64,000 nucleotides of DNA from NCBI GenBank assembly GCA_024707145.1, contig JANQAI010000005.1, positions 372,001-436,000 of the forward strand, written 5' to 3'. Source of the DNA: Magnetospirillum sp. (lineage in GTDB: Bacteria; Pseudomonadota; Alphaproteobacteria; Rhodospirillales; Magnetospirillaceae). This document shows, in pieces, positions 3,363-51,644 of this stretch. The position numbers and the translations under genes were made by a program. Numbering within the stretch: position 1 is the first letter of the stretch; each line of letters starts with the position of its first letter. The notes below the pieces were generated by a model. That model was given only the letters and a program-made list of their open reading frames with translations, searched no databases and was not told the origin of the DNA.

Positions 3363-6080
3363 TCACCGCACCAAACCCTTCAGCTCGTACAGCAGGTCCA
3401 GGGCTTGGCGGGGGGTGAGTTCGTCGGGGTTGGTGGTGCGCAGCCGCTCCTCGGTGGCGCTGGGTTCGGCAACCACCTCCGCTGCCGCCCGGGGCTTGGG
3501 TTTGGCCAGGGCGGCGAACAGGGGCAGGTCGTCGGCCAGGCGGGCGACGGCGTTGCTTTCCTCGCCCTTCTCCAGCGCCGACAGCACCTCCTCGGCGCGG
3601 TGCACCACCGCCGGCGGCAGGCCGGCCAGGCGGGCCACGTGTATGCCGTAGGAGCGGTCGGCCGCGCCGGCCGCCACCTCGTGCAGGAACACCACGTCGC
3701 CCTGCCATTCCTTGACCCGCATCTGGTGGCAGGACAGCTGCGGCAGCCGCGCGGCGAGCCGGGTCAGCTCGTGGTAATGGGTGGCGAACAGGGCGCGGCA
3801 GCGGTTGACCTCGTGCAGGTTCTCCACCACCGCCCAGGCGATGGACAGGCCATCGAAGGTGGCGGTGCCGCGGCCGATCTCGTCCAGGATCACCAGGGCG
3901 CGCGAGCCCGACTGGTTCAGGATGGCGGCGGTCTCCACCATCTCCACCATGAAGGTGGAGCGGCCGCGGGCCAGGTCGTCGGCGGCGCCGACGCGGCTGA
4001 ACAGGCGGTCGACCACGCCGAGATGGGCGCTTTCGGCGGGCACGAAGCCGCCCATCTGGGCCAGCAGCGCGATCACCGCGTTCTGGCGCAGGAAGGTGGA
4101 CTTGCCGGCCATGTTGGGGCCGGTGATCAGCCACAGGCGCTGGCCGTCGGACAGGTCGCAATCGTTGGCGACGAAGCTGCCGGCATGGGCGCTGGCCAGG
4201 GCCGCCTCCACCACCGGGTGGCGGCCGCCCCTGATCTCGAAGGTCAGGCTGTCGTCCACCACCGGGCGGGTCCAGCCTCCCTCCACCGCCAGCTCGGCCA
4301 GGGCGGCGGCCACGTCCAGGCCGGCCAGGGCGCGGGCGGCGGCGGCGATGTCGGGGCCGCGCGCCACCACCTCGCCGACCAGATCGTCCAGCAGTTCCAG
4401 GCTCCAGCGCCAGGCTGCGCTCGGCGGCGCCCTGGATCTTGCCGGCCAGCTCGATCAGGCTCGGAGGTGGTGTAGCGCGCCGCATTGGCCATGGTCTGGC
4501 GGTGGATGAAGCGCTCGTCCAGCTTGTCGGCCTGCTTGGACGGCACCTCGATGTGGTGGCCGATGATGTTGTTGTGGCGGATCTTGAGCGAACTGACGCC
4601 CGTTTCGTCAGCGTAACGGCGCTCCAGCCGGGCCAGCATGCCGAAGCCCTCGGTGCGGAGCGTCTTCAGTTCGTCCAGCGCCGGGTGGTAGCCGGCGGCG
4701 ATGAAGCCGCCGTCGCGGGCGTTGAGCGGCAGCTCCTCGGCCAGGGCGCGGGTCAGCCGGTCCACCAGGGCGGAATGCTCGCCCAGGCCTTGGGCCAGCT
4801 TGGCGATGCCCTCGGGCGGCGCCTCCAGCCCGCCGGTGGCGAGCGTGTTGCGCAAGCTCGGCGCCTGGGCCAGGGCGTCGCGCACATTGGCGAGGTCGCG
4901 CGGGCCGCCGCGCCCCAGGCTCAGGCGCGACAGGGCGCGCTCCACGTCGGGGCAGCGTTTCAGGGCGTCGCGGATGGCCTCGCGCACGCCTTCGTTGTCC
5001 ACGAAGAAGGCGATGGCGTCCAGCCGGCGCTCGATGGCGGCGGGATCGGTCAGCGGGGCGGCCAGCCGCGCCGCCAGCAGGCGCGCGCCGGCGCCGGTCA
5101 CCGTGCGGTCGATGGTGGCGAGCAGCGAGCCCCGTCGCTCGCCCGACAGGGTCTCGGTCAGTTCCAGGTTGCGCCGGGTGGCGGCGTCGATCTCCATCAC
5201 CGCGCCCTGGGCCAGCCGGCGCGGCGGGTTCAGCCGCGGCAGCTTGCCCTTCTGGGTCAGTTCGACGTAATCCACCAGGGCGCCGCCGGCCGCCAGGCTC
5301 GGCGCGCGAGAAGGCGCCGAAGCCGTCCAGCGCGCCGACGCCGTACAGGGCCTCCAGCCGGCGGCGGGAATTTTCGGAATCGAAACGGACGCTGGGCAGC
5401 GGGGTCAGGATGGACTTCCACTCGCCCCAGGTCTCGAACAGGGACTCGGTGTTGAGCAGGCGGTCGGGCACCAGCAGCTCGCCGGGACCGAGCCGCGCCA
5501 GGGCGGCGGCCAGCTGGCGGGCCTCCATGGCCTGCATGGCGAAGTCGCCGGTGGACACGTCCACCCAGGCCAGGCCCAGCATGCCCTGGGCCTCGGCCAG
5601 CGCCGCCAGGTAGTTGTTGGCGCGCGCGTCCAGCAGGTTGTCCTCGGTCAGCGTGCCGGCGGTGACCACGCGGATGACGTCGCGCGCCACCACCGATTTG
5701 GAACCGCGCTTCTTGGCCTCGGCCGGGTCCTCGGTCTGCTCCGCGATGGCGACGCGGAAGCCCGAGCGCACCAGCTTGGACAGGTAGACCTCGTACGAGC
5801 GGACGGGCACGCCGCACATCTGGATATCCTCGCCCAGATGCTTGCCCCGCTTGGTCAGGGCGATGTCCAGCGCGGCGGCCGCCTTGACCGCGTCGTCGAA
5901 GAACAGCTCGTAGAAATCGCCCATGCGGTAGAACAGCAGGCAATCGGGATGGGCGCGCTTGATGGCCAGGTACTGGGCCATCATCGGGGTGACGTCGGGA
6001 GAGGCGGCGGGAACGTCCGGGGTCTGGGCGGTCACAGCGGGAAATCCGGGAACAGCGGGCTCGGGCCGGCACGTTAGCAT
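3363..6080 (-). CDS. mutS: DNA mismatch repair ATPase MutS (three apparent frameshifts)
   Basis: MutS clamps on mismatches and small loops and recruits MutL. Family landmarks appear in order: the mismatch-binding Phe-X-Glu region ([16 protein letters not shown]), the clamp with [15 protein letters not shown], the Walker A site [17 protein letters not shown], then [20 protein letters not shown] and the FATHYHELT motif. The frame breaks at 5294-5300, 4456-4462 and 4398-4404. Each break is one extra C in a coding GAGCTG, and deleting it restores the expected Glu-Leu and a continuous protein of about 904 residues. Three identical lesions in one otherwise well-conserved gene suggest sequencing error; if real, the strain would be a mutator. 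The start is uncertain: the ATG at 6080 is chosen, about 32 residues before the conserved MMAQYL. Confidence 0.93.
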
Positions 6081-6235
6081 GAAGCCGGGCCGGTGCAAGT
6101 CTGCCCTCGCTGTCACAGGAGTTTCGCTGCCGCCGGGCCGGCGCAGGCGCTACCATGCCGCCCTTTCTGTCCCCTATGCAGGTGTCCGGCGATGGCGCAC
6201 AATATTCCCCCCGGCAACCTAGGCAGGAGGGTCCC

Positions 6236-6742
6236 GTGACCGCCACCAACACCACCACCGCCCCGACCCGTGAGGTCGTCGGCACCTTCGCCGACCGCGA
6301 GCATTTCCAGGCCGCCGTCGACGCCCTCATCCAGGCCGGCTTCGCCCGTACCGACCTGTCGGTGCTGGCCTCCCACGAATCCATCGATGCCGCCACCGGG
6401 CGCGAGGGCCGCGCCTGGAAGGACGCGCTGATCGCGCTGACCGGCGAACTGAAATACGAGGGCCCGCTGGTGGCCGCCGGGCTGATCGCCCTGGCCGCCG
6501 GGCCGGTGGGCGCCGTCATCGCCGGGCTGGTGGCGGCGGGCGTGGGCGGCGTCGCCGCCAAGGAATTGCTGGACGAGGTCGCCGCCCTGCCCGATTCCGA
6601 GGAATTCGCCAAGGCGCTGGCCGCCGGCAGCGTGATCCTGTGGGTTTCGGCCGCCGATGCGGACCGCGAGGTCAAGGCCAAGGCGGTACTGCACGACACC
6701 TCTGCACAGAATGTCCATGTGTTCGAGCGCAAGGCGCGGTAA
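6236..6742 (+). CDS. Small stress-type protein with glycine-rich hydrophobic core
   Basis: This 168-residue protein starts at a GTG preceded by GGCAGGAGGG, a clear ribosome binding site that decides the start over an upstream ATG. The first half (EVVGTFADREHFQAAVDALI, then AGFARTDLSVLASH) resembles the alpha/beta fold of general stress protein 17M/YflT-type domains. The middle (GPLVAAGLIALAAGPVGAVI) is a Gly/Ala-rich hydrophobic stretch like a glycine zipper, which could insert in or associate with membranes. The C-terminal third returns to a soluble, acidic sequence ending in VHVFERKAR. It is divergent from mutS and 62 bases upstream of maeB. The function is unknown; the stress-protein link is by fold resemblance only. 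Confidence 0.75.
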   Translation: MTATNTTTAPTREVVGTFADREHFQAAVDALIQAGFARTDLSVLASHESIDAATGREGRAWKDALIALTGELKYEGPLVAAGLIALAAGPVGAVIAGLVAAGVGGVAAKELLDEVAALPDSEEFAKALAAGSVILWVSAADADREVKAKAVLHDTSAQNVHVFERKAR

Positions 6743-6804
6743 ACCGGGCGCCCTTTGAACAAACATCGCGAACAACCATCGCATCGCCCGCCAGGAAGTC
6801 CTTC

Positions 6805-9091
<2,287 letters not shown>

Positions 9092-9096
9092 GCCGC

Positions 9097-10526
9097 ATGG
9101 ATCGCCGCGCCCCCCTCACCACCGGCCGGATCGTCACCGCGGCGGTGCTGCTGTCGGTGCCCACGGCGGCCATGCTGGTGGTGATGGTGGCGCTGCTGAA
9201 GCTCGACATGATGGCCGCCATCCTGGGCTGGGCGGTGGTCACCGTGCTGGTGGGGCTGCTGGTGCGGCCTTACCTCGCCTCGCTGATGGCGGTGACGTCG
9301 TGGGCGCGGGCGCTGGCGGCCGGTTTCGACACCAAGCCGCCGGTGATCGAGCGCGAGGCCCCGGTGGCCGAGATCGTCGGCGCCATCGGCCAGCTGCGCC
9401 GGGCGTGGCAGGGCCGCCAGCACCTGCTGGCGGAATCGGCGCGCTGGAACGAAACCCTGTTCGACAACCTGCCCGACCCACTGATCCTGCTGTCCGAGGA
9501 CCGCCGCGTGGTGCGGGTCAACCAAGCGGCGCTGGCGGTGTTCGGCTCGGCCATCATCGGCCGCGACCTGGCGGCGGTGCTGCGCGACCCCCAGGTGCTG
9601 GAAGCCACCGACGAGGTGCTGGCCGGCGTCTCGGGCCGCGAGGGCGAGTTCACCCTGCCGGTGCCGGTGGAGCGGTCGTTCCGGGTCCGGGTCGAGCGCC
9701 TGGGCTCGCGCGCCATGGACGACACCGTGGCGGTGCTGGCGTTGCACGACCTCACCGCGGTCAAGCGCATGGAGCAGATGCGCGCCGACTTCGTCGCCAA
9801 TGCCAGCCACGAATTGCGCACGCCGCTGGCCACCCTGCTGGGCTTCATCGAGACCCTGCGCGGTCCCGCCCGCGACGACCCGGATGCGCGTGAACGCTTC
9901 CTCATCATCATGCAGGAGCAGGCCTCGCGCATGGCCCGGCTGGTCAACGACCTGCTCTCACTCTCGCGCATCGAGCTGAACGAGCATTCCAAGCCCAGCC
10001 AGAAGGTGGATCTGGGTCGCGTGGTCGAGGTGGCGGCCGAGGCCCTGCAGCCGCTGGCCAAGGCCAAGTCCATGACCATCGTGCCCAAGCTGCAGCCGGG
10101 CGCCCGCATGGTGGTGGGCGACTCCGACGAGCTGGCCCAGCTGGTCCAGAACCTGTTGGACAACGCGGTCAAGTACGGCCGCGACGGCACCGCGGTCGAA
10201 GTCAGCCTCCGTCTGCCCGAAACCCTGCCCGCCACCGCCGGCAACACCCTCAGGCCGGGGGGGCGGTGGTGTTCGCGGTCAGGGACCGGGGCGAGGGCAT
10301 CGGCAAGGAGCACCTGCCGCGCCTGACCGAGCGTTTCTATCGCGTCGACACCGCGCGCTCGCGCAAGATGGGCGGCACCGGCCTGGGCCTGGCCATCGTC
10401 AAGCACATCGTCAATCGCCACCGGGGCGCCCTGGTGGTGGATTCGGTCATCGGCGAGGGGTCCACCTTCGCCGTCTACCTGCCCAGCGCCGAGGAGGCTC
10501 CGGAAAGCGTGCGCGCCGCTGGCTAG
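9097..10526 (+). CDS. phoR: PhoR-like membrane sensor histidine kinase (one apparent frameshift)
   Basis: The corrected protein has about 476 residues. Two N-terminal hydrophobic helices (about residues 10-60) are followed by a PAS domain ([20 protein letters not shown]), a HisKA domain with the phospho-acceptor in [19 protein letters not shown], and a HATPase with N box [17 protein letters not shown]1 box [16 protein letters not shown] and G2 box [15 protein letters not shown]. The architecture and H-box match PhoR, the phosphate-starvation kinase, although no phoB or pst genes are nearby. The frame breaks at 10257-10263, where a run of seven G should be eight; adding one G gives [16 protein letters not shown]. 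It is probably co-transcribed with maeB (5-base gap). Confidence 0.88.
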
Positions 10527-10545
10527 GACGCTTGGTTTGGTGTTA

Positions 10546-10705
10546 GCCCTCTGGCTTCGCGGCCATCAGCCGTTCAAGAAACACAGATGAACACAGGCGC
10601 CTGACGGCGCACACAGATGAACACAGATAAGGAAGGCCTATCTGTGTTCATCTGTGTTTATCGGCGTTCATCTGTGTTCCATGGAACCGATGTCGCCAGA
10701 GTCCA
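10546..10705. repeat. Intergenic inverted repeat, 'ACACAGATGAACACAG' family, copy 2
   Basis: The core AAACACAGATGAACACAG...ATCTGTGTTCATCTGTG resembles copy 1. Flanks are shared with copy 3 (31564-31735) in inverted orientation: GGCCATCAGCCG upstream and TTCCATGGAACCGATG downstream occur in both. The repeated unit is therefore about 160 bases, longer than the hairpin alone. It fills the gap after phoR. Confidence 0.88.
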
Positions 10706-10708
10706 CAC

Positions 10709-10966
10709 CTAGGACGGCAGGCCTTCGCCCGTGCCGCCCTGGGCTTCGGGCTCCTCCGGGGCGACGTTGTGGCCGCCGCACTGGCCGCACTTGAACACGA
10801 TGGGCACTTCCAGGCGGCGGAAATTGAAGCTGGTCAGCATCTTGTGACCGCAATGGCCGCACAGATAATCCTCGCCACCCTGCCCCACGGTGGACAGGCC
10901 GGTGTCGAACACCTGCCTCTCGCCCACGTCGCGGGCGCTGATGGCAATCAGGACGATTTCCGCCAT
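10709..10966 (-). CDS. Small zinc-ribbon protein
   Basis: This 85-residue soluble protein starts MAEIVLIAISARDVGERQVF. Two knuckles, CGHCGHKM and CGQCGGHNV, about 21 residues apart, form a likely four-cysteine zinc ribbon, and the C-terminal tail is acidic and Gly-rich. The ATG at 10964-10966 is chosen over one 16 codons upstream because GGAAGGAAACACC just precedes it. It lies 25 bases downstream of ggt on the same strand and may be co-transcribed. I do not recognise a specific family. A DNA- or RNA-binding or scaffold role is possible, but nothing in the sequence decides this. Confidence 0.75.
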   Translation of the reverse strand: MAEIVLIAISARDVGERQVFDTGLSTVGQGGEDYLCGHCGHKMLTSFNFRRLEVPIVFKCGQCGGHNVAPEEPEAQGGTGEGLPS

Positions 10967-10991
10967 AAGGTGTTTCCTTCCTGTAATGAAA

Positions 10992-12584
10992 TTACCAGCC
11001 GGCGGCCACGCCATCGGCGCGGGGATCGGCGGCGCCCTCGATCAGGCCGTCGGCCCGGCGCACCAGGGCGCCGGCATGGCCCATGATGGAATCGAAGGGC
11101 GCCACCCTCTCCACGTTGTGTCCCAGCGCCGCCAATTCCGCCGCCAATTCGGGCGAGAAGCGCGCCTCCAGCTTGAGGTCGGTGCCGGGCTGGCCGTCCA
11201 CCGCCCGGCCGTAGACGAAGCGCGGCGCCGTCACCGCCGCCTGCAGGGACTGGCCGTACAGCACGGCGCGGGTGAAGATCTGCGCCTGGATCTGCGGCTG
11301 GGAATCGCCGCCCATGCTGCCCCACACCATGGTGCGGCCGTCCTTCAGCCGCGCCAGGGCGGGCGACAGGGTGTGGAGGGGCTTGCGCCGGGGCTCCAGG
11401 GCATTGCGGTGCTCGGGGTCCAGCGAGAACGAAACGGCGCGGTTGTGCCAGGCGATGCCGGTGCGCGGCAGCACCACTCCCGAACCGAAGGCGTGGTACA
11501 GGCTCTGGATGAAGCTGACGGCGCGGCCCTGGCCGTCGATGACGCCCAGCCACACGGTGTCGCCGTCCTGCAGCGTCTGGTTGGCGGGACGGGCGCGGGC
11601 GGGGTCCACGTCACCGGCCAGGCGGTCGAGCAGGTGGTCGGACAGATAGGTGGTGGCGTGCACCGACATGCGGTGGGGGTCGGTGATGTGGCTGTCGCGC
11701 ACCCCATAGGCGATCTTGGTGGCCTCCACCAGGGCGTGCACCCAGGCGGCCTCGTCGGGGCCGGCCGCCTTCAGGCGCTGGTACACCCCCAGCAGGATCA
11801 GCGAAGCCAGGCCCTGGGTGGGCGGCGCGGTGTTGAACAGGGTGCCGCCGGCCAGGCCCAGGGACAGCGGGCGGCGGCGCATGCCGCGATGGCGGGCCAG
11901 GTCCTCGGCGATCAGCGGCGAGCCGGCATCGCGCAGGTCCTCGGCCATGCTCCGCGCGATGTCGCCGCGATAGAAATCGTCCAGCCCCACTTCGGCCAGC
12001 CGCTCCAGCGTGGCGGCCAGGGCGGGCTGGGGAATCGGCATACCCACGGCGGGGAGCTTGTTCCGTACCAGGAATGTCTGCGCGAAGCCCGGGGCCTTGC
12101 GCAGCGCCGCCAGATTGCGGCGGGTGGCGGCCTCCTGGTGGGCGGTGACGGCGGCGCCTTCGCGGGCGTAGTGGATGGCGTCCTCGAACAGCCGCTCCAG
12201 CGGCATGCCGCCGCCCCATTGCGCGGACACGTCCAGCGCCAGCTGCCAGCCCGACACCGCCCCGGCCACCGTGGCGGCGGCCAGGCCGCCGCGCGCCGGC
12301 ACCGCCTTCAGCTTTTCCGCGCGGTAGAGATCGCGCTCCACCCGCACCCCCGAGGCGCCCGAGCCGTCGATGGAGACCGGCGGCTTGCCCGGCTCGGCGA
12401 TCAGCCAGAAGCCGTCGCCGCCCAGCCCGGTCATGTGAGGATAGACCACCGACAGGGCGGCGGCGGCGGCGATGGCCGCCTCGATGGCGTTGCCGCCCTC
12501 GCGCAGGACCGCCAGTCCGGCCTGCGAGGCGAGGTGGTGCGGGGTGGTGATCATTCCCCGCCGGCCCATGGGGGTATTCAGCAT
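10992..12584 (-). CDS. ggt: Gamma-glutamyltransferase family protein (Ntn hydrolase)
   Basis: This 530-residue member of the gamma-glutamyltranspeptidase family cleaves gamma-glutamyl bonds after self-processing. The N-terminal part has the family pattern (ASQAGLAVLREGGNAIEAAI, MTGLGGDGFW). The processing site and nucleophile are the Thr in DGDTVWLGVIDGQGRAVSFI at about residue 345, and GSMGGDSQPQIQAQI is the conserved C-terminal region. No clear signal peptide is visible, unlike E. coli Ggt, so it may act in the cytoplasm or on other gamma-glutamyl or cephalosporin-like amides. It is divergent from gpt. The family is certain; the substrate is not. Confidence 0.9.
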   Translation of the reverse strand: MLNTPMGRRGMITTPHHLASQAGLAVLREGGNAIEAAIAAAAALSVVYPHMTGLGGDGFWLIAEPGKPPVSIDGSGASGVRVERDLYRAEKLKAVPARGGLAAATVAGAVSGWQLALDVSAQWGGGMPLERLFEDAIHYAREGAAVTAHQEAATRRNLAALRKAPGFAQTFLVRNKLPAVGMPIPQPALAATLERLAEVGLDDFYRGDIARSMAEDLRDAGSPLIAEDLARHRGMRRRPLSLGLAGGTLFNTAPPTQGLASLILLGVYQRLKAAGPDEAAWVHALVEATKIAYGVRDSHITDPHRMSVHATTYLSDHLLDRLAGDVDPARARPANQTLQDGDTVWLGVIDGQGRAVSFIQSLYHAFGSGVVLPRTGIAWHNRAVSFSLDPEHRNALEPRRKPLHTLSPALARLKDGRTMVWGSMGGDSQPQIQAQIFTRAVLYGQSLQAAVTAPRFVYGRAVDGQPGTDLKLEARFSPELAAELAALGHNVERVAPFDSIMGHAGALVRRADGLIEGAADPRADGVAAGW

Positions 12585-13205: not shown

Positions 13206-13225
13206 GGCTGTCCGGAGTCTGCGGC

Positions 13226-13308: not shown

Positions 13309-13316
13309 CCACGGAC

Positions 13317-23740: not shown

Positions 23741-24422
23741 ATGCTCGCCGCCCTGCTCAAGGCCTTCGCCCAATTGTCCGATCCCGCCCTGCGCCGGGTG
23801 GTGCGCCTGGGCGTGCTGGGGGCCGTCGGCTGCTATCTGGCGCTGGTGGCGGTGGTGTGGCTGGGCCTGCCCCATGTCACCCTGTTCGACGTGGGCTGGG
23901 CCGATACCGGCGCCGGCATCGCGCTCGGGCTGGCCGCCCTGGTGCTGCCCATCCTGTTCTTCCCGGCGCTGGTCACCACCGTCATGGGCACCATGCTGGA
24001 AGGCGTCGCCGACGCGGTCGAGGCCCGCCACTATCCCCAGCTCAACTGGCCGCGGCCGCAGAAATGGGCTGAAATCATCGGCGGCACCCTGCGTTTCCTG
24101 TTGCTCACGGTGGCGATCAACCTGCTGGCGCTGCCGCTTTATCTGGCGCTGCTGGTGACCGGGCTCACCGTGCTGCTGGCGGTGGTGGTCAACGGCTACC
24201 TGCTGGGACGCGAATATTTCGAGCCTGGTGGCGGCCCGCCGGCTCGATCCCGCCCAGATGCGGCTGGTGTTCCGCCACCATCTCGGCCGGCTGTGGCTGG
24301 CGGGCGCGGTGATCGCCGTACTGTTCTCGCTGCCCCTGGTGAATCTGGTGGCGCCGGTGGTGGCCACCGCCTTCATGGTTCACCTGTTCCAATCGTTGCG
24401 CAGGCAAACAGACCTGCTATAG
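23741..24422 (+). CDS. EI24/CysZ-domain membrane protein (one apparent frameshift)
   Basis: The corrected protein has about 227 residues and several long hydrophobic helices, including LVAVVWLGLPHVTLF, LGLAALVLPILFFPALVTTV, LRFLLLTVAINLLALPLYLA and LAGAVIAVLFSLPLVNLVAP. The motif NGYLLGREYFELVAARRLDP is characteristic of the EI24 (CysZ-like) family, which includes sulfate permease CysZ and uncharacterised homologues. At 24221-24227 GAGCCTG stands for the expected GAGCTG in that very motif; removing a C rejoins the frames. The start at 23741 follows a short leader and is shared in position with the family. Transport function is inferred from the family only. Confidence 0.82.
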
Positions 24423-32728: not shown

Positions 32729-33199
32729 TCATTTATCTTCCTTCAGAAGGGCGTCCAGGCGTCGCTTCTCGGCTTCGGTCAGCGGCGCCGGCTGGGCGGG
32801 GGCGCCGGGGCCGGTGCGGCGGCGATAGAACGCCCACACCGCCGCCAGGCCCAGGGCCAGCAGGGTGAAGGGGCCGACCCATAGCACCAGGGTAGTGGCC
32901 TTGAACGGCGGTTTCAGCAGCACGTAATCGCCGTAACGGTCGACCACGAACTTCTTCACCTGCTCGTCGCTGGCGCCGGCCTGGATCTGCTCGCGCACGA
33001 TGATGCGCAGGTCCTTGGCCAGATCGGCGTTGGAATCCTCGATGGATTCGCTCTGGCAGACCAAGCAGCGCAGCTCCTTGCCCAGCTTCTCGGCGCGCCG
33101 CTCCAGCGCCGGGTCCTTCAGCATTTCCGATGGATCGGCGGCGAAGGCCGGCACGGCCGCGGTCAAAGCCAGGGCGAGGGCGAAACCAAGGCGCCTCAT
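32729..33199 (-). CDS. ccmH: Cytochrome c biogenesis protein CcmH (CycL)
   Basis: This 156-residue periplasmic thiol oxidoreductase reduces apocytochrome c CxxCH cysteines together with CcmG. A signal peptide (MRRLGFALALALTAAVPAFA) is followed by the redox motif LRCLVCQSESIEDSNADLAK (Cys 45 and 48) and a C-terminal membrane helix (LVLWVGPFTLLALGLAAVWA). The ATG at 33197-33199 overlaps the restored ccmG stop as ATGA. As sequenced, the frame is joined to ccmG without a stop, but a signal peptide in the middle of a chain is implausible and the join depends on one GAGCCTG insertion. Confidence 0.92.
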   Translation of the reverse strand: MRRLGFALALALTAAVPAFAADPSEMLKDPALERRAEKLGKELRCLVCQSESIEDSNADLAKDLRIIVREQIQAGASDEQVKKFVVDRYGDYVLLKPPFKATTLVLWVGPFTLLALGLAAVWAFYRRRTGPGAPAQPAPLTEAEKRRLDALLKEDK

Positions 33200-33736
33200 T
33201 TGTTCAGGCTCCTGGATGATGGGCAGCAGGGTGGTCTTCCACACCTCGGGGGTGATGGGGCCGATGTGCTTGTAGCGGATGACCCCGTTCTTATCGACCA
33301 CGAAGGTTTCGGGCGCGCCGGTGACGCCGAAATCGATGGCGGCCCGGCCCGGCGCCGGGTCGGCGCCGACGCGCTCGTAGGGGTCGCCGTTCTTGGTCAG
33401 CCACTTGGCGCCCTCGGCCGGATCGTCGCGCCAGTCGATGCCGTGGATGGGCACGATGCCGGCCTTCTTCAACTGCACCAGGGTGGGGTGCTCCTGCACG
33501 CAGGCGATGCACCACGAGCCGAAGATATTGACCAGCGACACCCGCCCCTTCAGGTCGGCGGTGGCCAGCCCGCTGTCGGCCGGGCGGCCGGGCAGCGGCG
33601 GCAGGGCCATCTCGGGCACCGGGCGGTCGATCAGCTGCGAGGGCAAGACGCGGGGATCGTGCCCCAGGCCCCATTTGAACACCGCGGCCAGGCCCAGGAA
33701 GGCCAGCAGCGGCAATACGAAGACAAGGCGGCGCAT
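33196..33736 (-). CDS. ccmG: Cytochrome c biogenesis thioredoxin CcmG/DsbE (frameshift at 3' end)
   Basis: This protein of about 179 residues is a membrane-tethered thioredoxin that keeps apocytochrome thiols reduced. The anchor is MRRLVFVLPLLAFLGLAAVF, the redox site is FGSWCIACVQEHPTL (Cys 76 and 79), and the thioredoxin cis-Pro lies in TGAPETFVVDKNG. At 33205-33211 the coding strand reads GAGCCTGAACAAATGAGG; deleting one C gives a C-terminus QELNK, a TGA stop and an ATGA overlap with ccmH, exactly the usual arrangement. Without the correction ccmG and ccmH read as one 335-residue fusion. Confidence 0.92.
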
Positions 33737-33751: not shown

Positions 33752-35753
33752 TCAGGCCTTGGCCGGCTGCACGGCTGCCTTATCGCGACGGTTGGGGGCC
33801 CGGGTGGGGGCACCGACGCGGTGGCGGCGGTCCGACAGTGAAACCAGCCCGCCCAGCACCATGACCAGGGCGCCCACCCACATCCACGGCACCAGCGGGT
33901 TGAAGTACAGGCGGGTGACATAGCCGCCCGAAACGTCCTTGTCGCCGATCACCGCATAGACGTCGCCCCAGAAGGTGCCGACGATGGCGGCCTCTGTGGT
34001 GGGGCGCGGCGGCATCTTGTAGACCCGTTTGGCGGGGGTCATCTCGGCGAAGGGCCGTCCGTCCCTGCTCACCTCGAACACGCCCTCGGTGGCGATGTAG
34101 TTGGCGCCGGGCACGTCCTTCACCTCCTTCAGGGTGAAGGTGTAGCCGGCGACGGTGACCGCCTGGCCGATATGCTGGCTCTGCACCGATTCCACCTTCC
34201 ACGCCGAGGAGGCGGTGGCGCCGGCGATGAACACCGCCAGGCCGGCATGGGTCAGCGTCATGCCCCAGGCGGCGCGCGGCAGGCGGGCGGCGCGGCGGAG
34301 CGAGTCCGGCAGCGGTGCCTTGAACAGCCGCACCCGCTCGGCCCATTCCACCAGCGTGCCCAGGAACAGCCAGGCGGCCAGGCCCATGCCGCCGGCAGCC
34401 CACCACGGGCCGGCCGAGCCGCCCTGCAGGAACCAGGTGGCGGCGACGACGGCCACCGACAGGCCGACGGCGAATTTGAGGCGCAGCAGCACGGCGGTGA
34501 GGTCCGAGCGCTTCCACGACATCAGCGGGCCGACGGCCATGGCCAGCACCATGGGCACCATCAGCGGGACGAACACCGAATTGAAGAAAGGCGGACCCAC
34601 CGATACCTTGCCCAGGTCGAAGGCGTCGGCGAACAGCGGATACAGGGTGCCCAGCAATACCGTGCCGGCGCCGGTGGCCATCAGCACGTTGTTGAGCAGC
34701 AGCGCCCCCTCGCGCGACAGCGGGGCGAACAGGCCGCCGGTCTTCAGGCTGGGCGCGCGCACGGCGAACAGGGTGAACGAACCGCCGATGGCCACCACCA
34801 GCAGGCCCAGGATGAACACGCCGCGGGTCGGATCGCTGGCGAAGGCGTGCACCGAGGTGATGACGCCCGAACGCACCAGGAAGGTGCCCAGCAGCGACAG
34901 GCCGAAGGCGACGATGGCCAGGAAGATGGTCCAGCTTTTCAGCGCGTCGCGCTTCTCCACCACCACGGCGGAATGCAGCAGCGCGGTGCCGGCCAGCCAC
35001 GGCATGAACGAGGCGTTCTCCACCGGGTCCCAGTACCACCAGCCGCCCCAGCCCAGGCTCGTAATAGGCCCACCACGAGCCCAGCACGATGCCGCAGGTG
35101 AGGAACACCCAGGCGGCCAGGGTCCAGGGCCGCACCCAGCGGGCCCAGGCGGCGTCCACCCGGCCCTCGATGAGGGCGGCGATGGCGAACGAGAACGCCA
35201 TGGAGAAGCCCACGTAGCCCAGGTAGAGGAAGGGCGGGTGGAAGGCCAGGCCGGGGTCCTGCAGCAGCGGGTTCAGGCCGTTGCCGTTGATGGGCGGCGG
35301 GTCCAGGCGCTCGAACGGGTTCGAGGTGAACAGGATGAACAGCAGGAAGCCGACGGTGATCATGGCCTGCACCGCCAGGGCGCGGGACTTGAGGCCGGGC
35401 GGCAGGTTCCTGCCGAACAGGGTGACCGCCAGGCCGAACAGCGCCAGGATGGTGATCCACAGCAGCAGCGAGCCCTCGTGGTTGCCCCACACGCCGCTCA
35501 CCTTGTACAGCAGCGGCTTGTCGGTGTGGCTGTTCTGGGCCACGTTCAGCAGCGAGAAGTCCGAGGTGACGTAGGCGTGGGTCAGCGCCGCGAAGGCCAC
35601 CGCCACCAGCAGGAACTGCACCACCGAGGTGGGGCCGGACAGCCCCATCAGGACGGGGTCGTTGCGGCGGGCGCCCACCAGGGGCAGGCTGGCCTGCAGC
35701 AGCGCCACGCCCAGGGCCAGGATAAGGGCGAAATGGCCGATCTCGGCGATCAT
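33752..35753 (-). CDS. ccmF: Cytochrome c haem lyase subunit CcmF (one apparent frameshift)
   Basis: The corrected protein has about 666 residues and roughly 14-15 membrane helices. It accepts haem from CcmE and ligates it to apocytochrome c in the periplasm. The tryptophan-rich WWD region (restored GWGGWWYWDPVENASF) and haem-ligand histidines (VWGNHEGSLLLW, PFLYLGYVGF nearby) are visible. At 35054-35060 GAGCCTG replaces GAGCTG in the motif WWAYYELGWGG, splitting the gene right before the WWD core; removing one C rejoins it. ccmG follows after 15 bases. Confidence 0.94.
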
Positions 35754-41510: not shown

Positions 41511-41523
41511 GGACGGTCCTCGC

Positions 41524-42232: not shown

Positions 42233-42500
42233 CTTGTTCGCCGGCCGTTGCCGTCCAGCGAGGGTGCGGACCATACACAAACCGGATGGGGGACGCAAGC
42301 ACTGATTCGCAGGGCCGAAAATCTGCTGCTTCGGCCAATACTTCCGGCAGCCGTACCTGCAAATCCGGCTTGTGGCCCCCTACCGGTTTGCGTAAAATCC
42401 CCGACGATTGCGGGGGGCAAGTCATTTTCCCACACAAAGCTGAGTTTTGCTGTCCCGGCGGGTTCATCCCAATTGGCGAACTAAAAGGTAAGCTGTCCCA

Positions 42501-43604: not shown

Positions 43605-43627
43605 GCCGGGAACGGCTTCGACAAGGA

Positions 43628-43666
43628 AATCCCCCGGAGGGCTGGGCCCTCCGGGGGATTTTGTTT
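43628..43666 (+). terminator. Rho-independent terminator (bidirectional)
   Basis: AATCCCCCGGAGGG, loop CTGGG, CCCTCCGGGGGATT, then TTGTTT. The reverse strand also reads a stem followed by TTTCCTTGT, so it can end transcripts from both convergent genes. Confidence 0.85.
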
Positions 43667-43692
43667 GGCGGTATGTCCGCTGCTCCCTTTAT

Positions 43693-44868
43693 TTATTTCT
43701 CCCGGCTGATTTTCCATACCGTGCGGCCGGCATCGTCGGCCACGTAGAGGGCGCCGTCGGGCGTGGCGGCGATGCCCACCGGGCGGCCCCACACCGTGCC
43801 GGGCGATACGGTGAAGCCGGTGGCGAAGGCCTCGTAGCCGCCCTGCGGCTTGCCGTCCTTAAACGGCACCCGGGCGACGAAATAGCCGATGGGGGTCGAA
43901 CGGTTCCACGAACCGTGCAGGCCCACATAGGCGTCGCCGTCCAGGAAGGCCAGCCCCAGCGGCGCCGAGTGCGAGCGGAACAGCAGGTCCGGCACGCGCG
44001 TGCGCTTCACCCGTTCCGGCGCCTTCTCGGCGAAGCCCGGCTGCGGATGGTGGCCGATATAGGCATAGGGCCAACCGTAGAAGGCGTCGCGCCCCACCTG
44101 GGTCAGGTAGTCGGGCACGAGCTCGTCGCCCTGGCCGTCGCGCTCGTTGACCACCGCCCACAATTCCTCGGTTCCCGGGCGGAAGGCCATGCCCACGGGA
44201 TTGCGCAGCCCGGCGGCGAAGGTGCGCTGGCCGCCGCCGTCCAGCGCGAATTCCTGCACGGTGGCGCGCGGTTCCTCCTCCTCGGCCAGGTTGGAACGGC
44301 TGCCGATGCCCACATAGAAATGCCGGCCGTCGGGGGCGATGGCCAGCGAGCGGGTACTGTGGCCGCGGTCATCGCCCAGCGCCCCGGTCTCGGTCACCGG
44401 GTCGCGCCGCTCCACCCGGCCCACCCCCGGGCTCCACGGCAGCCGCCAGACCCGGCGGGTGTCGGCCACCCACACGGCGTCGCCGTGGAAGGCCAGGCCG
44501 AAGGGTTCGGCGAAGCCCTCGGCGAAGGTGGAGCGGGACTCGGCCTGGCCGTCGCCGTCCTTGTCCACCAGCCGGGTCAGCTTGTCGGCCCGCTGCTCGG
44601 CCACCAGCAGCGAGCCGTCGGGCAGCACCAACAGATTGCGCGGATGATCCAGCCGTTCGGCGAACAGGGTGGCGCGCCAGCCCGCCGGCACCTTCAGCGT
44701 CGCACCCTTGGGCCGGGGCACCACGTCGGCCGGATTGGCCTTGGACGGGGTCGCCTTGGGGGGCGGCAGGGCATTCAAATCGACAAAGAAACGATCCCCC
44801 GGCTTGGGGTCGGCGCCCCAGGCGGGCGGGGCGAACAGCACCAGTGCGGCGACCAGGAAGCGCTTCAT
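43693..44868 (-). CDS. PQQ-dependent sugar dehydrogenase-like protein (Gdh/sorbosone dehydrogenase family)
   Basis: This 391-residue exported protein has a signal peptide (MKRFLVAALVLFAPPAWGAD). It is a six-bladed beta propeller of the soluble glucose/sorbosone dehydrogenase (YliI-like) family. Typical motifs are LDHPRNLLVLPDGSLLVAEQ, GFAEPFGLAFHGDAVWVADT, AAGLRNPVGMAFRPGTEELW and HGSWNRSTPIGYFV. The family oxidises sugars with PQQ or serves as a non-catalytic propeller; PQQ use is inferred from the family. The ATG at 44866-44868 is chosen because upstream residues come from a repeat. Confidence 0.85.
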   Translation of the reverse strand: MKRFLVAALVLFAPPAWGADPKPGDRFFVDLNALPPPKATPSKANPADVVPRPKGATLKVPAGWRATLFAERLDHPRNLLVLPDGSLLVAEQRADKLTRLVDKDGDGQAESRSTFAEGFAEPFGLAFHGDAVWVADTRRVWRLPWSPGVGRVERRDPVTETGALGDDRGHSTRSLAIAPDGRHFYVGIGSRSNLAEEEEPRATVQEFALDGGGQRTFAAGLRNPVGMAFRPGTEELWAVVNERDGQGDELVPDYLTQVGRDAFYGWPYAYIGHHPQPGFAEKAPERVKRTRVPDLLFRSHSAPLGLAFLDGDAYVGLHGSWNRSTPIGYFVARVPFKDGKPQGGYEAFATGFTVSPGTVWGRPVGIAATPDGALYVADDAGRTVWKISREK

Positions 44869-44897
44869 CGTGACACCTCGGGAGCTGATGCCGGTCA

Positions 44898-44997
44898 TTT
44901 CACCACCAAGACACCAAGACACCAAGCTGGCCGTCGGGTGGTACCGCCGCTGCCCGCCGGCACACTCTCTTGGTGCCTTGGTGTCTTGGTGGTGAAA
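44898..44997. repeat. 'CACCAAGACACCAAG' inverted repeat, copy 1
   Basis: TTTCACCACCAAGACACCAA on the left and TTGGTGTCTTGGTGGTGAAA on the right are near-perfect reverse complements of about 35 bases, separated by a GC-rich 42-base centre. The sequence between differs from that at 48177-48274, while the arms are the same. Confidence 0.88.
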
Positions 44998-45000
44998 TCA

Positions 45001-45026
45001 AAAAGGCCCTCCCGGAGGAGGGCCTT
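45001..45026 (-). terminator. Rho-independent terminator of grpE
   Basis: Read leftward: AAGGCCCTCC, loop TCCG, GGAGGGCCTT, then TTTGA. It ends four bases before the grpE stop codon region. Confidence 0.85.
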
Positions 45027-45030
45027 GATC

Positions 45031-45625
45031 TCAGGCGCTGGTGTCCACCTGCTCGCCGGGCGGGACCTTGGGGCCGCCCTTGGAGACGCCCACCAGGGCC
45101 GGGCGCAGCAGGCGGTCGTGGATCTGATAGCCCTGCTGCATCACCACCACCACGGTGCCTTCCGGCTGGGTGGTGTCCTCCACCTCCATCATGGCCTGGT
45201 GCAGGTTGGGATCGAAGCGGGTGCCCTGGGCCGGCACCATGCGGATGCCGTAGCGCTCGAAGGTGGACAGCAGTTCGCGCTCGGTCATCTCCACGCCCAC
45301 GGTCAGCGTGTTGGCGGTTTCGTTGCCCTCGCGCGCGGCGGGGGGCACCGAATCCAGGGCGCGGCGCAGGTTGTCCGCCACCGACAGCACGTCCTTGGCG
45401 ATCTGGGCGACGGCGTACTTGCCGCGGTCCTCGGCCTGCTGCTCCAGCCGGCGGCGCACGTTCTCGGTCTCGGCCTTGGCGTACAGCACCTCGTTCTTCA
45501 GCGTGGCGACCTCGGCCTCCAGGCTCGGCAATGCGACCGGCGGCGGCCGGGTCGGCGGCGGCCATCGCCGGGGCTTCGGCGGCCGGGGCTTCGGGCGTCT
45601 GCTCGTTCTGGGGATCCTGGCTCAT
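45031..45625 (-). CDS. grpE: Nucleotide exchange factor GrpE (one apparent frameshift)
   Basis: The corrected protein has about 197 residues and releases ADP from DnaK. The N-terminal 35 residues are acidic/Ala-rich. A long helix follows (LKNEVLYAKAETENVRRRLE), then the four-helix bundle (DVLSVADNLRRALDSVP) and the beta domain (FDPNLHQAMMEVED, GTVVVVMQQGYQIHDRLLRP). The frame breaks at 45520-45526, where GAGCCTG replaces GAGCTG; correction gives GRIAELEAEVATLKNEV. It follows hrcA by 24 bases, so the two are an operon, apart from dnaK-dnaJ. Confidence 0.94.
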
Positions 45626-45649
45626 GTCTTCTCTTTCTTGTGCTTGGTG

Positions 45650-46719
45650 TTAACCGATCAGGCGTCCGACCACCTTGGCGGTGTAGTCGACCATGGGAAT
45701 GATGCGGGCGAAATTCAGCCGCTGCGGGCCGATCACGCCGATGGCGCCGATGATCTGTTCGCGCGAGTCCCGGTAGGGCGCGACGATCATGGAGCAGCCG
45801 GTGACGCCGAACAGCTCGTTCTCGGCGCCGATGAAGATCTGCACGCCCTCGGCGGTGCTGGTCAGCTCCAGCAGGCGCAGGAACTGCTCCGAGGTTTCCA
45901 GGGCGTCGAACAGGGTGCGGATGCGCTCCAGGTCCTCGACGGCGGTGACGTCCTCCAGCAGGTGCGACTGGCCGCGCACGATCAGCGCGCTGCGGTTGCC
46001 GTCGCCCGACCAGGTGGCCAGCCCCGCCTCGACAACCCGTTTCGTCAGCGAATCGAGCTGGTGGCGCTGCTGTTCCAGTTCGGCCAGCACCACGTCGCGC
46101 ACGTCGTCCAGGGTGCGCCCGGCCAGGCGGTGGTTGAGGAAATTGGTGGCCTCCACCAGGGCCGAGGGCTCGACGCCGTCGGGCAGGTCGAGGATGCGGT
46201 TCTCCACCATGCCGTCCTCGGTGACCAGCACCACCAGGGCGCGGCCGCGCCCCAGCCAGACGAATTCCAGGTGCTTCAGGCTGGGCTGCATGCGTGGCGC
46301 CATCACCATGCCGGCGCAGCGCGACAGCCCGGACAGGGTGCCGATGGCCTCGGACAGCACCTGCTCGACGCTCTTGCCCTGGGCGCGGCACTGGGCGTCG
46401 ATGGTGGTGCGCTCGTCGTCGGGCAGCCCGCCCACCTCCAGCAGGCCGTTGACGAACAGCCGCATGCCTTGGGGGTGGGCAGCCGTCCGGCCGAGGTGTG
46501 GGGGGCGTAGAGCAGGCCCAGGTCTTCCAGGTCGGCCATGACGTTGCGGATGGTGGCGGGCGACAGGTGGACGGGGATGCGCCGCGACAGCGTGCGCGAG
46601 CCCACGGGTTCGCCCGTCTGCACGTATTCCTCGACGATGTGTCGAAAAATCTCGCGCGAACGCTCGTTCAGCTCGGTGATCACGGGACTGCGTCCGCGCA
46701 GCATTGCCTTGGTTTCCAA
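45650..46719 (-). CDS. hrcA: Heat-inducible transcription repressor HrcA (one apparent frameshift)
   Basis: The corrected protein has about 356 residues. HrcA represses class I heat-shock genes through CIRCE sites. The winged-helix domain contains [20 protein letters not shown] and [20 protein letters not shown]. The frame breaks at 46471-46475, where five G (coding C) should be six; correction gives [17 protein letters not shown]. The GAF-like and C-terminal domains ([59 protein letters not shown]) are intact. No CIRCE element is seen in the window; its targets (probably groESL) are elsewhere. Confidence 0.94.
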
Positions 46720-46737
46720 CCGGTTCCGCCGCGACGG

Positions 46738-46766
46738 AATCTAGTGAGCGGGAGGGGGGCCGTCAA
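46738..46766 (-). promoter_or_regulatory. Candidate sigma-70 promoter of hrcA-grpE
   Basis: Leftward TTGACG, 17 bases, TAGATT, ending about 20 bases before the hrcA ATG. A short leader is therefore expected. The rph gene is divergent and would need its own promoter in the remaining 90 bases. Confidence 0.5.
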
Positions 46767-46859
46767 CTTTAGGGAAGGCCGGGGCTGAAGGGTGGACGGG
46801 GGGCGCGGGAAGGGCTAGGGTTCCGGCCAATTCCACCACCATGCGAGACTTCCGCCGTC

Positions 46860-47579
46860 ATGAGACCTTCCGGCCGCGCCTTCGACCAGCTTCGCCCCAT
46901 TTCCCTCGAGCCCGGCTTCGCCAAATACGCCGAGGGCTCGTGCCTGGCGCGGTTCGGCGACACCCACGTGCTGTGCACCGCCTCGGTGGAAGAGAAGGTG
47001 CCGTCCTTCCTGCGCAACTCGGGCAAGGGCTGGGTCACCGCCGAATACGGCATGCTGCCGCGCTCGACCCATTCGCGCACGGATCGTGAAGCCGCGAAGG
47101 GCAAGCAGTCCGGCCGCACCCAGGAGATCCAGCGCCTGATCGGGCGATCCTTGCGCGCCGTCACCGACCTGACCGCCATGGGCGAGATGCAGGTCAAGAT
47201 CGACTGCGACGTGCTGCAGGCCGACGGCGGCACCCGCACCGCCTCCATCACCGGCGCCTATGTGGCCCTGCACCTGGCCTTCCAGAAGCTGGTGGCGGCC
47301 GGCAAGCTGGCCGCCGTGCCGCTGATCGACCAGCTGGCCGCGATCTCCTGCGGCATCTACGAGGGCCACGCGGTGCTGGACCTGGACTATGCCGAGGATT
47401 CCTCGGCCCAGGCCGATTCCAACTTCGTGCTGACCGGTTCGGGCGGCATCGTCGAGGTGCAGGGCACCGCCGAGGAGCGCCCGTTCAGCCGCGACCAGTT
47501 CCAGACCCTGCTGCAGCTGGCGGAAAAGGGCGTGGCCGAGCTGGTGGCGGAGCAGAAGAAGGCGCTGGGGCTGGCATGA
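46860..47579 (+). CDS. rph: Ribonuclease PH
   Basis: This 239-residue phosphorolytic 3' exonuclease trims tRNA precursors. It starts [20 protein letters not shown] and shows the family motifs [35 protein letters not shown] and the RNase PH signature [20 protein letters not shown] (about residues 115-134). Length matches E. coli RNase PH (238). Its stop overlaps the rdgB ATG (ATGA), a conserved rph-rdgB pairing, and hemW follows. Confidence 0.96.
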
Positions 47580-48172
47580 GCCGTCATTTCCGCCAATCCC
47601 GGCTGGTCATCGCCAGCCACAATGCCGGCAAGGTGCGCGAGATCGGCGAGCTGCTGGCGCCCTTCGGCGTCGAGGTGGTGTCGGCCGGCGCCCTTGGCCT
47701 GCCCGAGCCGGAAGAGACCGGCGCCACCTTCGTTGCGAATGCGGAACTGAAGGCCCATGCCGCCGCCAAGGCCGCCAACCTGCCGGCGCTGGCCGATGAT
47801 TCGGGGCTGGCGGTGGACGGCCTGGGCGGCGATCCCGGCATCTATTCCGCCCGCTGGGCCGGGCCTGCCAAGGACTTCGCCGCCGCCATGGCCCTGGTCA
47901 ACGACAAGCTGGGCGCCAGCCCGGACCGCGCCGCCCGCTTCGTCTGCGCCCTGGCGCTGGCTTGGCCCGACGGCCATTGCGAGACCTTCGAGGGCGTGGT
48001 GGACGGCGATCTGGTGTGGCCGCCGCGCGGGTCGGCCGGCTTCGGCTACGATCCCATGTTCCAGCCCCGGGGCCACGCCATCACCTTCGGCGAGATGGAC
48101 CCAGGCAAGAAGCACGAGATCAGCCACCGCGCCGACGCCTTCCGCAAGCTGGTGGCGGCCTGCTTCAAGTAA
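47576..48172 (+). CDS. rdgB: dITP/XTP pyrophosphatase RdgB (HAM1)
   Basis: This 198-residue enzyme removes deaminated purine nucleotides (dITP, XTP) from the pool. Family motifs: [18 protein letters not shown] at the start, [40 protein letters not shown] with the catalytic acidic residues, and [15 protein letters not shown] then [18 protein letters not shown] near the end. It is translationally coupled to rph. A CACCAAG repeat follows within five bases. Confidence 0.96.
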
Positions 48173-48176
48173 GGAT

Positions 48177-48274
48177 TTCACCACCAAGACACCAAGGCAC
48201 CAAGAGGTCGAATGCGTGGCACCCATGGTGCTTTCCGTGAGCTATCTTGGTGCCTTGGTGTCTTGGTGGTGAAT
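48177..48274. repeat. 'CACCAAGACACCAAG' inverted repeat, copy 2
   Basis: TTCACCACCAAGACACCAAG and CTTGGTGCCTTGGTGTCTTG (then GTGGTGAA) pair over about 30 bases around a 38-base unrelated centre. It lies between rdgB and hemW, inside an otherwise compact gene run, and ends 10 bases before the hemW start. Confidence 0.88.
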
Positions 48275-48284
48275 CGACCTCCTC

Positions 48285-49427
48285 ATGCGTGATCCCGGTT
48301 TCGGCATTTACATCCACTGGCCCTTCTGCCTGTCGAAGTGCCCCTATTGCGACTTCAACAGCCATGTGGCCGCGCAGATCGACCAGCCACGCTGGCGCGC
48401 CGCCCTGCTGGCCGAACTGGAGCATTTCGCCCGCCTGAAGCCGGGCGCCGCCGTCACCAGCATCTTTTTCGGCGGCGGCACCCCCAGCCTGATGGAACCG
48501 GCCACGGTGGCGGCGCTGATCGAGCGGGTGGCCGCCCTGTGGCCGGTGGCCGCCGACCTGGAAGTGACCCTGGAGGCCAACCCCTCCACCGTCGAGGCCG
48601 GGCGTTTCCGCGATTTCCGCGCCGCCGGCATCGGCCGGCTGTCGCTGGGCGTGCAGGCGCTGGACGATGCGTCCCTGAAATTCCTCGGCCGCCGCCATGA
48701 CGCGGCGGAGGCCTTGGCCGCGCTGGAGTTGGCCGGGCGGCTGTTCCCGCGCTTCTCCTTCGACCTGATCTATGCCCGCCCCGGCCAGACCCCCGCCTCG
48801 TGGCGGGACGAACTGACCCGCGCGCTGGGGCTGGCGGGCGACCATCTGTCCATGTACCAGCTGACCATCGAGGACGGCACCGCCTTCGCCCCGGCCCATG
48901 CCCGCGGCGATTTCGTTCTGCCCCCGGAAGAAGATCAGGCGGCCACGTTCGAGATCACCCAGGCGCTGACCGCCGCCGCCGGCCTGCCCGCCTACGAGGT
49001 GTCCAACCATGCCCGGCCGGGGGGCGAATGCCGGCACAACCTGACCTACTGGCTGGGCGGCGATTACGTGGGCGTGGGTCCCGGCGCCCATGGCCGGCTG
49101 AACGGCGAGGCCTTCCGCCAGCACCGCGCCCCCGCCATCTGGCTGGAGCGGGTGGAGGCCCACGGCCACGCCACCCAGGAGCGGGAGGCGCTGGACCCGG
49201 CCATCCGCGCCGAAGAGATGGTGATGATGGGGCTGCGCCTGACCGACGGCATCCGCGCCGATACCTTCGCCGCCGCCTCGGGCCGTTCCCTGTGGCAGGT
49301 GCTGGATGCGGACGGGCTGGCCCGCATGGAGGAGGGCGGCTTCATCGCCCGCACCTCCGCCGGGGTGCGGGCCACGCCGGCCGGCATGCTGGTGCTCAAC
49401 GCCCTGACGGCGGAACTGCTGGGCTAG
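48285..49427 (+). CDS. hemW: Haem chaperone HemW (radical SAM, HemN-like)
   Basis: This 380-residue protein has the radical-SAM cluster motif [17 protein letters not shown] (CxxxCxxC), then [20 protein letters not shown] and [40 protein letters not shown] for SAM binding, and a HemW-type C-terminal domain ([20 protein letters not shown]). It lacks the extra N-terminal Cys of true coproporphyrinogen oxidase HemN, so HemW (haem delivery) is the better call. It is downstream of rph-rdgB across a repeat. Confidence 0.93.
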
Positions 49428-49578
49428 GCGGGCTCCTCCCGATCACCCTCTTTGCGCTGCCGTCCCCCTGCCCTATAGTATTCGCATTGGGTCCAATACG
49501 TTGAACCCAGATGAAATTGTCACCATTCCTTGGGAACGGGCCGTGCGGTCCGATGGAATGACCGTTCGGGGAAAAACC

Positions 49579-50055
49579 ATGCCGCGTTCTCGCCTTCCAG
49601 CCATTCTGGGCCTGTTCGGCCTTCTCGCCTCGGCATCCGCCGGGGCCGAGGAGATCGGCAGCGTCTCCACCGTGTTCAAGATGCTGGGGCCCAACGACAA
49701 GATCGTGGTGGAGGCGTTCGACGACCCCAAGGTGGACGGCGTCACCTGCTATCTGTCGCGCGCCAAGAAGGGCGGCATCTCCGGCGGGCTGGGCGTGGCC
49801 GAGGACACCTCCGACGCTTCCATCGCCTGCCGCCAAGTGGCGCCCATCGCCTTCAAGGCCAAGTTCAAGGACGGCGAGGAAGTGTTCCGCAAGGACACCT
49901 CGCTGCTGTTCAAGACCATGCAGGTGGTGCGCTTCCACGACACCAAGCGCAACGTGCTGATCTATCTGGTCTATTCGGACCGCATCATCGAGGGTTCGCC
50001 CAAGAACTCCATCTCGGTGGTGCCCATTCCCGCCGGCCAGGGCCAGGGAGGCTGA
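49579..50055 (+). CDS. creA: CreA family protein
   Basis: This 158-residue periplasmic protein has a signal peptide ([20 protein letters not shown], cleaved near AGAEE) and the CreA core: [56 protein letters not shown] and [20 protein letters not shown]. CreA in E. coli is in the creABCD cluster; its role is unknown. An in-frame ATG seven codons upstream is possible. It is followed after 4 bases by an uncharacterised gene that is probably co-transcribed. Confidence 0.88.
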
Positions 50056-50059
50056 CGCC

Positions 50060-51644
50060 ATGGAGCTTCCCGCCGACCAGCGGCTTCTTCACGACGACCT
50101 GTGCGCCAAGCTGGAGCAGCAGCAGGACAAGGCCCAACTGATCGCCTTCATGGGCGGGGTGCTGGGGTCGCTGCTGCGCCGCCGGGGCGACGCCGCCTTC
50201 CTGCACGCGGTGCAGGACGCCTTCACCGCCGGCCTGGCCGGGCGCGCCTGGCCGCAGCAGGTGGAGCTGGCGCGCGAGGTCATCGGCACCGTCATCGCCA
50301 AGCGGCCCGAGATCGCCCTGGCCTGGCAGCGGGTCAGCGGCGAGCAGCCCCATCCCCTGGCGCGCCGCGCCGTCGATCTGTCGCCCGACGACCTGCCCGA
50401 GATCAGCGTCACCCCCGAGGAGGAGGCGCCGCCGCCCGTCGATTCCTTCGCCGCCTTCGAGGCCGCCGTGGTGGACGACGTGGCCGGTGCGCTGGGCCGC
50501 CGGCTGGCCTTGTTCGCCCTGCCGCCGCAGCGCTTTCCGTCGCCCACCTACGTGCACGAGCAGCCGTTCTTCCTGGCCACCGAGGCCTTCGCCCAGGTGG
50601 CGCGCAAGTTCCTTGCCGGGGTGCTGCTGCCCCTGTGGCGCGACCAGCTGCACCAGCTGCACGCCCGCCAGGGCGGGCTGGATCCGGTGACGGCGGTGAC
50701 CCAGGCCCGCACCGAATTGTGGACGCTGGTGGCCGAGCGTCTCGGCAATCTGGCGGCGCTGTCGGACAGCGCCCAGGCCAAGCTGGCGGCCGCCCGCTCC
50801 GGCGCCGACGACCAGCCCGAATTCCACCTGATCGAGGTGCCGGTCAGCCGCAAGCGGGTGTTCTCGGTGCTGGGGGTCAACTTCACCCTGGGCAGCAGCA
50901 CCGAAATGGTGACGCGCAAGGTGGCGGTGGAAGGCCCCGGCAAGCCGACCCCCGATGAGATGCTGGCGCTGGACCTGGCGACCAGATGGCACGACATGGC
51001 CGCCGCCGCCGGCCTGGACCTGCCGCCGGTCGCCGATCTGGCGGCGCTGCAGGCGGTGCTGACCTTCGACGCCGGGCGGCTGGCCGAGGACATGCCCGGC
51101 CTGCTGGCCCTGGCGCGCGACCCCGACGTCGAGCACGAAGCCCTGCTGGACGGCATCGAGGCGGCGGTGGCCGGCCATCCGCCGGCCGTCGCCGACGCGG
51201 TGGCGGTGGCGCTGTTCGCCCACGGCGTCGATGGCGGCTTCGGCTACGAGGAGCCTGGTGCGCCTGGGCGAGCGCTGGGGCGCCGACGACCATCCCCTGC
51301 TGGCCGACGAAATCGCCCGGCGCCCGCGCGACCTGGCCTTCCAGGTGCGTGACGCCATGCGCCAGCGGCTGGACCGCAACCATTTCGGCCTGACCGTGGT
51401 GATGCTGCTGGAGGTATGGCGGGTGCTGGCCGGCCGCCGCTGGCAGGAACCGCTGGACCTGGCGCTGACCGTGTTCTCGGCCTTCCCCATCGCCTTTGCC
51501 GGCGACCCCGCCGAGGCGGTGTTCAGCGAGATCGGCGTGGTGCTGGCCAAGAACCTGTCGGCGCCCGTGCTCGACGCCCCCGGCACCATCGAGAAGACGA
51601 TCCAGCTCTACACCAAGGTGGTGCCCAAGGCGTCGCAGGAGTAA
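50060..51644 (+). CDS. Uncharacterised 527-residue protein (one apparent frameshift)
   Basis: I do not recognise this protein. The N-terminal 130 residues are helical (DDLCAKLEQQQDKAQLIAFM and following), followed by an acidic Pro-rich linker (ISVTPEEEAPPPVDSF). A middle region includes ALFALPPQRFPSPTYVHEQP, and a helical C-terminal half ends EKTIQLYTKVVPKASQE. No signal peptide, membrane helices or catalytic motifs are visible. At 51251-51257 GAGCCTG replaces GAGCTG; correction joins FGYEELVRLGERWGADDHPL. It starts 4 bases after creA and precedes the rubredoxin gene by 58 bases. It may be lineage-restricted. Confidence 0.75.

Follow-up and report, generated by a model that had tools for sequence, protein, structure and literature searches.

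Extra bases at SAGCTS in a Magnetospirillum genome are most likely reading errors, probably provoked by methylation

Systematic nanopore errors at particular DNA words have been described in bacteria. Consensus errors are documented at Dcm sites (CCWGG), where they cluster at a methylated motif absent from basecaller training (PMC6591954). In Listeria, a second report describes modification-mediated errors at GCAGC (mza strains) and GCTGG, with genomes improved by the use of amplified DNA (PMC10687267). Here we analyse a recurring one-base lesion, coding GAGCTG read as GAGCCTG, in 64,000 nucleotides of Magnetospirillum sp. DNA (contig JANQAI010000005.1, positions 372,001 to 436,000; hereafter the window) and in the genome that bears it, G000. 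The lesion resembles the Dcm-site errors in its concentration at one motif and differs in that motif and methylation were known there, whereas the present motif was deduced from broken reading frames and the error adds one base at SAGCTS (S, G or C). It resembles the Listeria errors, which were described in native DNA, in being strain-specific, motif-bound and systematic; those errors were linked in four strains to a defence system that carries a methyltransferase, lie at other motifs, are mainly mismatches and had their cause tested by amplification.

SAGCTS is itself a published methylation motif. It is the N4-methylcytosine (m4C) motif of M.Ble402III of Beggiatoa leptomitiformis (PMC4675945); a further report gives SAGCTS and m4C for both M.Ble402III and M.Ble401III (PMC5920184), and another gives VSAGCTSS (m4C) for Klebsiella pasteurii (PMC8398951). 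The Beggiatoa motif, called m4C from PacBio kinetics, is identical to the lesion motif found here, which came out of lesion counts alone before the literature was searched for it; the two are likened by motif and not by enzyme sequence.

Insertions recur at one word

Isolated one-base insertions in G000 concentrate at the word. Alignment with G004, a 99% complete genome of the same genus, covered 294 kb of coding sequence and yielded 31 isolated one-base insertions and 14 isolated one-base deletions; the word accounts for 23 of the 31 insertions and for 0 of the 14 deletions. Because 0.64% of random aligned positions have the word within the same 15-base span, the binomial probability of this outcome is about 3e-44, and the observation is true and far beyond chance. 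One of the 23 word insertions also adjoins a G run (contig C3, position 178380 of that block), and 10 of the 14 deletions lie beside runs of at least four identical bases, a residue of long-read type. The aligned lesion sites are free of insertions in G004.

G000 comprises 5.14 Mb in 15 contigs at 91.57% completeness, and G004 was chosen as reference among the twelve same-genus genomes reached. A piece of mutS from G000 has its best named match, at 78%, in an uncultured Rhodospirillaceae bacterium, in line with an alphaproteobacterial source. We compared 1.064 Mb of G000, window included (about a fifth of the genome), with 1.116 Mb of G004, the stretches being chosen non-randomly around the window, via synteny and at a few scattered places; 315 kb could be aligned. 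To count as isolated, an event needed conserved protein to its left and right, with 15 or more codons compared and 55% or more of the residues identical on either flank, and no neighbouring non-triplet gap. In a first, smaller alignment sample, 880 raw non-triplet events were reduced to 79 by the flank and net-shift filters and to 37 isolated one-base events; the same flank and isolation filters were applied to the 294 kb sample. An ab initio hidden Markov model of reading frame was dropped as too insensitive and prone to confuse gene boundaries with frameshifts, and was replaced by the G004 alignment and a local coding-potential test (log-likelihood ratio, LLR). Gene calls in G004 lie at times on the antisense frame, as for mutS, and orientation counts were handled cautiously.

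A scan that scored the coding potential of a +1 shift at each base and summed it by hexamer points to the same word. Across 864 kb of G000, AGGCTC (53/266) and AGCCTG (64/624) rank highest, at 7.6 and 3.9 times the base rate, ahead of CCCCCC (3.6 times); in 922 kb of G004 the top fourteen hexamers include neither AGGCTC nor AGCCTG. Shifted GAGCCTG words are scattered across contigs.

Within the window, GAGCCTG heptamers are present at all nine positions and on the strands where the earlier note had placed them, in genes on both strands:

4398..4404, minus strand: mutS; one-base insertion against G004, MutS domains in that frame region
4456..4462, minus strand: mutS; one-base insertion against G004
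5294..5300, minus strand: mutS; one-base insertion against G004, LLR 27.9
8851..8857, plus strand: maeB (malic enzyme, orthologue named); one-base insertion against G004, LLR 19.3
24221..24227, plus strand: EI24/CysZ-like gene; +1 coding-potential break, LLR 19.2, PF07264 in the upstream frame
33205..33211, minus strand: end of ccmG; LLR -24.0, Redoxin and CcmH in one 335-residue open reading frame
35054..35060, minus strand: ccmF; LLR 7.0, protein continues in another frame by three-frame translation, with CcmF_C (Pfam) there
45520..45526, minus strand: grpE (GrpE by Pfam); one-base insertion against G004, LLR 17.4
51251..51257, plus strand: gene without a Pfam match; +1 coding-potential break, LLR 34.9, neither piece in a family

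The claim that each heptamer holds one extra base is borne out at 4398, 4456, 5294, 8851 and 45520 by alignment with G004, and coding potential bears out the +1 break at 24221 and 51251 (LLR 19.2 and 34.9). At 35054 the LLR is 7.0 and conserved protein goes on in another frame; site 33205 lacks coding-potential support, and it fits the claim but has been tested less than the other eight. In total the window holds 21 GAGCCTG and 72 GAGCTG words on both strands. The remaining 12 GAGCCTG words all fall short of LLR 10, as do sites 4398, 4456, 33205 and 35054, so the weak cases among the 12 (9084, 37415, 38310 and 53906; LLR 6.5-8.2) may include lesions. One of these, 9084 (LLR 7.4), was rejected as a lesion, its translation suggesting that one gene stops there and the next begins. 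Separately, ccmG and ccmH form a single 335-residue frame (window 32729-33736, minus strand), which an annotator could mistake for a natural fusion protein.

The lesion follows SAGCTS

To define the motif we counted, in the compared stretches of both genomes, the words with an added C that break the frame. Breaks occur at 88 of 771 SAGCTS words with an added C in G000 against 11 of 552 in G004 (p = 5e-12), the latter being the false positives of the coding-potential test in that genome (2.0% of SAGCCTS words). AGCT words flanked by A or T, taken together, show no excess (10/479 against 21/616); the largest single one, AAGCTT, gives 2/79 against 1/129 (p = 0.32). This excess at S-flanked words and its absence at A/T-flanked ones indicate that the lesion follows SAGCTS, and the contrast also stands at thresholds of 5 and 20. 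GAGCTG/CAGCTC is the most heavily struck (64/309 in G000, 6/185 in G004; p = 5e-9), and CAGCTG is also enriched (18/420 against 4/322; p = 0.011). Relative to intact sites, the excess amounts to 6.8% at GAGCTG/CAGCTC, 2.8% at CAGCTG and 7.1% at GAGCTC, and about 0 at 1077 AAGCTG/CAGCTT and 240 AAGCTC/GAGCTT intact sites. The asymmetric site is struck on its GAG half (GAGCCTG 60/218, CAGCCTC 4/91). The earlier note had proposed an AGCT-type motif on the strength of the word GAGCTG: counting AGCTG against AGCCTG at frameshifts in the sampled fifth of the genome confirms enrichment at that word, but the motif is neither AGCT in general nor GAGCTG only, and we correct it to SAGCTS.

Avoidance of CAGCTG is unspecific, with observed-to-expected ratios (O/E) of 0.66 in G000, 0.24 in G004, 0.30 in G008 and 0.67 in G002. 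Other words are depleted in these genomes: CTCGAG has the lowest ratio of the tested hexamers in 864 kb of G000 (134 against 550 expected; O/E 0.24), and CTGCAG is nearly missing from 922 kb of G004, with 8 occurrences on both strands where 375 were expected, as though a PstI-type restriction system were being avoided.

Reading errors, mutations or recoding

The genes that appear broken suggest that the insertions arose outside the cell. Without the flank and isolation filters, 30 insertions at the word fall in 26 distinct G004 open reading frames; a family search covered 20 of the 26 and named 15 of these 20 at E <= 1e-30. By their G004 orthologues the struck genes encode DNA topoisomerase I (topA, two lesions), IF-2 (infB), polynucleotide phosphorylase (pnp, two), MutS (three), DksA, CobT, cobalamin adenosyltransferase, ferrochelatase, alanine dehydrogenase, a DapC-type transaminase, malic enzyme, a Maf-like protein and FliX; pnp and the gene for FliX each have another gap nearby. 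Within the window, grpE and ccmF are struck too. A cell in which topA and infB are broken is not expected to live, so the living bacterium most likely lacks these insertions, and the extra bases are most likely errors of the sequencing machine and not mutations. The apparent breaks in topA, infB, mutS, ccmF and others should therefore not be reported as pseudogenes, and such breaks may have lowered the completeness recorded for G000. The description in the earlier note of a context-linked, partial artefact outside homopolymers holds across the sampled fifth of the genome: the lesion recurs there, is not seen in G004 and strikes topA and infB.

These errors were probably provoked by methylation of the word. 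A methylated cytosine at SAGCTS, to which the motif itself points, would lead the basecaller or consensus step to add one base, and a need for particular bases at both ends of a palindrome is the pattern expected of a methyltransferase site. The 15 contigs and the deletions beside runs would fit assembly from native long reads. We found no description of insertions at SAGCTS within the limited coverage of the literature searched, and the lesion is most likely an artefact of a known kind at a motif for which that literature describes no such error. Judging by these counts, frame breaks in an assembly may be enough to recover a methylation motif, which would help with further long-read genomes from uncultured organisms.

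The strongest competitor, which we consider unlikely, is a purely sequence-driven long-read error in which the caller or polisher adds a base at a given k-mer regardless of DNA chemistry. It would accommodate a rate of only a few percent that is swayed by further flanks: around GAGCTG, lesions and intact words number 2:102 with T after, 1:36 with A before and 2:48 with T before, and 34:403 and 16:188 with C and G. It would also accommodate the absence of lesions from a genome with a related enzyme, G613. It leaves unexplained, however, why S is needed at both ends of the palindrome, why GAGCTT and AAGCTG show no excess despite sharing most of the k-mer, and why the motif matches that of a published methyltransferase.

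Real insertions, through decay or in a mutator strain whose mutS is itself struck, are very improbable, even though the extra bases are present in the deposited sequence and three of the sites lie in mutS. A living cell would hardly carry lesions in topA (two), infB, pnp (two) and grpE together, and loss of mismatch repair would be expected to change the length of runs, whereas the word is not a run. Programmed +1 ribosomal frameshifting or four-base decoding at GAG CCT G, with the genes working as they stand, is scarcely credible: the 12 GAGCCTG words whose net shift in aligned genes is +1 are all in that phase, but so are 179 of 185 intact GAGCTG words, so that codon phase does not discriminate, four GAG CCT G words in the same phase align without a shift, the other orientation is struck too (CAGGCTC in topA, CAGGCTG in the alanine dehydrogenase gene), and the shift site, which programmed frameshifting would keep in relatives and in one orientation, is not kept in G004.

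Several observations weigh against methylation-provoked errors at SAGCTS as the full account. The coding-potential test also calls breaks at control words in G000 (1/30, 25/856, 2/100 for GTGCCTG and 15/367 for GAGCCGG), and GAGTCTG, a word with few instances, is broken at 3 of 20 in G000 and 0 of 15 in G004. GAGCTC alone is the weakest leg of the motif (6/42 in G000 against 1/45 in G004; p = 0.045). Four of the 12 sampled 20 kb blocks contain no shifted GAGCCTG, and SAGCTS-type sites are intact in both 23S copies of G000, a neutral result from few sites. The published SAGCTS enzyme makes m4C while the candidate in G000, described below, is a C5 enzyme, and only two PF01555 enzymes, among which N4-cytosine enzymes would fall, were found. 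Finally, 100 kb of G613, whose enzyme is 73% identical to the candidate, has no shifted words (0/13 GAGCCTG, 0/8 GAGCCTC, 0/18 CAGCCTG), where about 5 lesions would be expected if the G000 rates, summed, applied on its sequencing platform too.

Methyltransferase genes and further observations

The earlier note had suggested that the lesion points to a DNA methyltransferase in this strain. A search of G000 for a cytosine methyltransferase gene found one C5 methyltransferase locus, whose candidate enzyme scores 196.7 bits against PF00145 (cut-off 22) and 197.8 bits against TIGR00675 (cut-off 100.65). Two close homologues that are intact, P0002 and P0003, share 83% and 85% identity with it. The middle gene of the locus is a GHKL-type ATPase (PF13589) and not a recognised nuclease, unlike the CglI and NgoAVII restriction-modification systems (PMC4267653). 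The suggested link is indirect: it gains from this locus and from SAGCTS being a published methylation motif, but is weakened by the lesion-free G613.

Two further observations concern G000 more broadly. Its 23S copies are unequal in quality: L260 (contig C9) shows extra one-base differences from relatives beside runs, such as those around alignment columns 2736 and 4361 relative to L258, which L262 (contig C14) lacks. G000 also carries a Type III restriction-modification pair on contig C14 (L239:7603-11071), consisting of an EcoP15I-like Mod and Res, and G004 has a PF01555 enzyme of similar length (512-residue frame).
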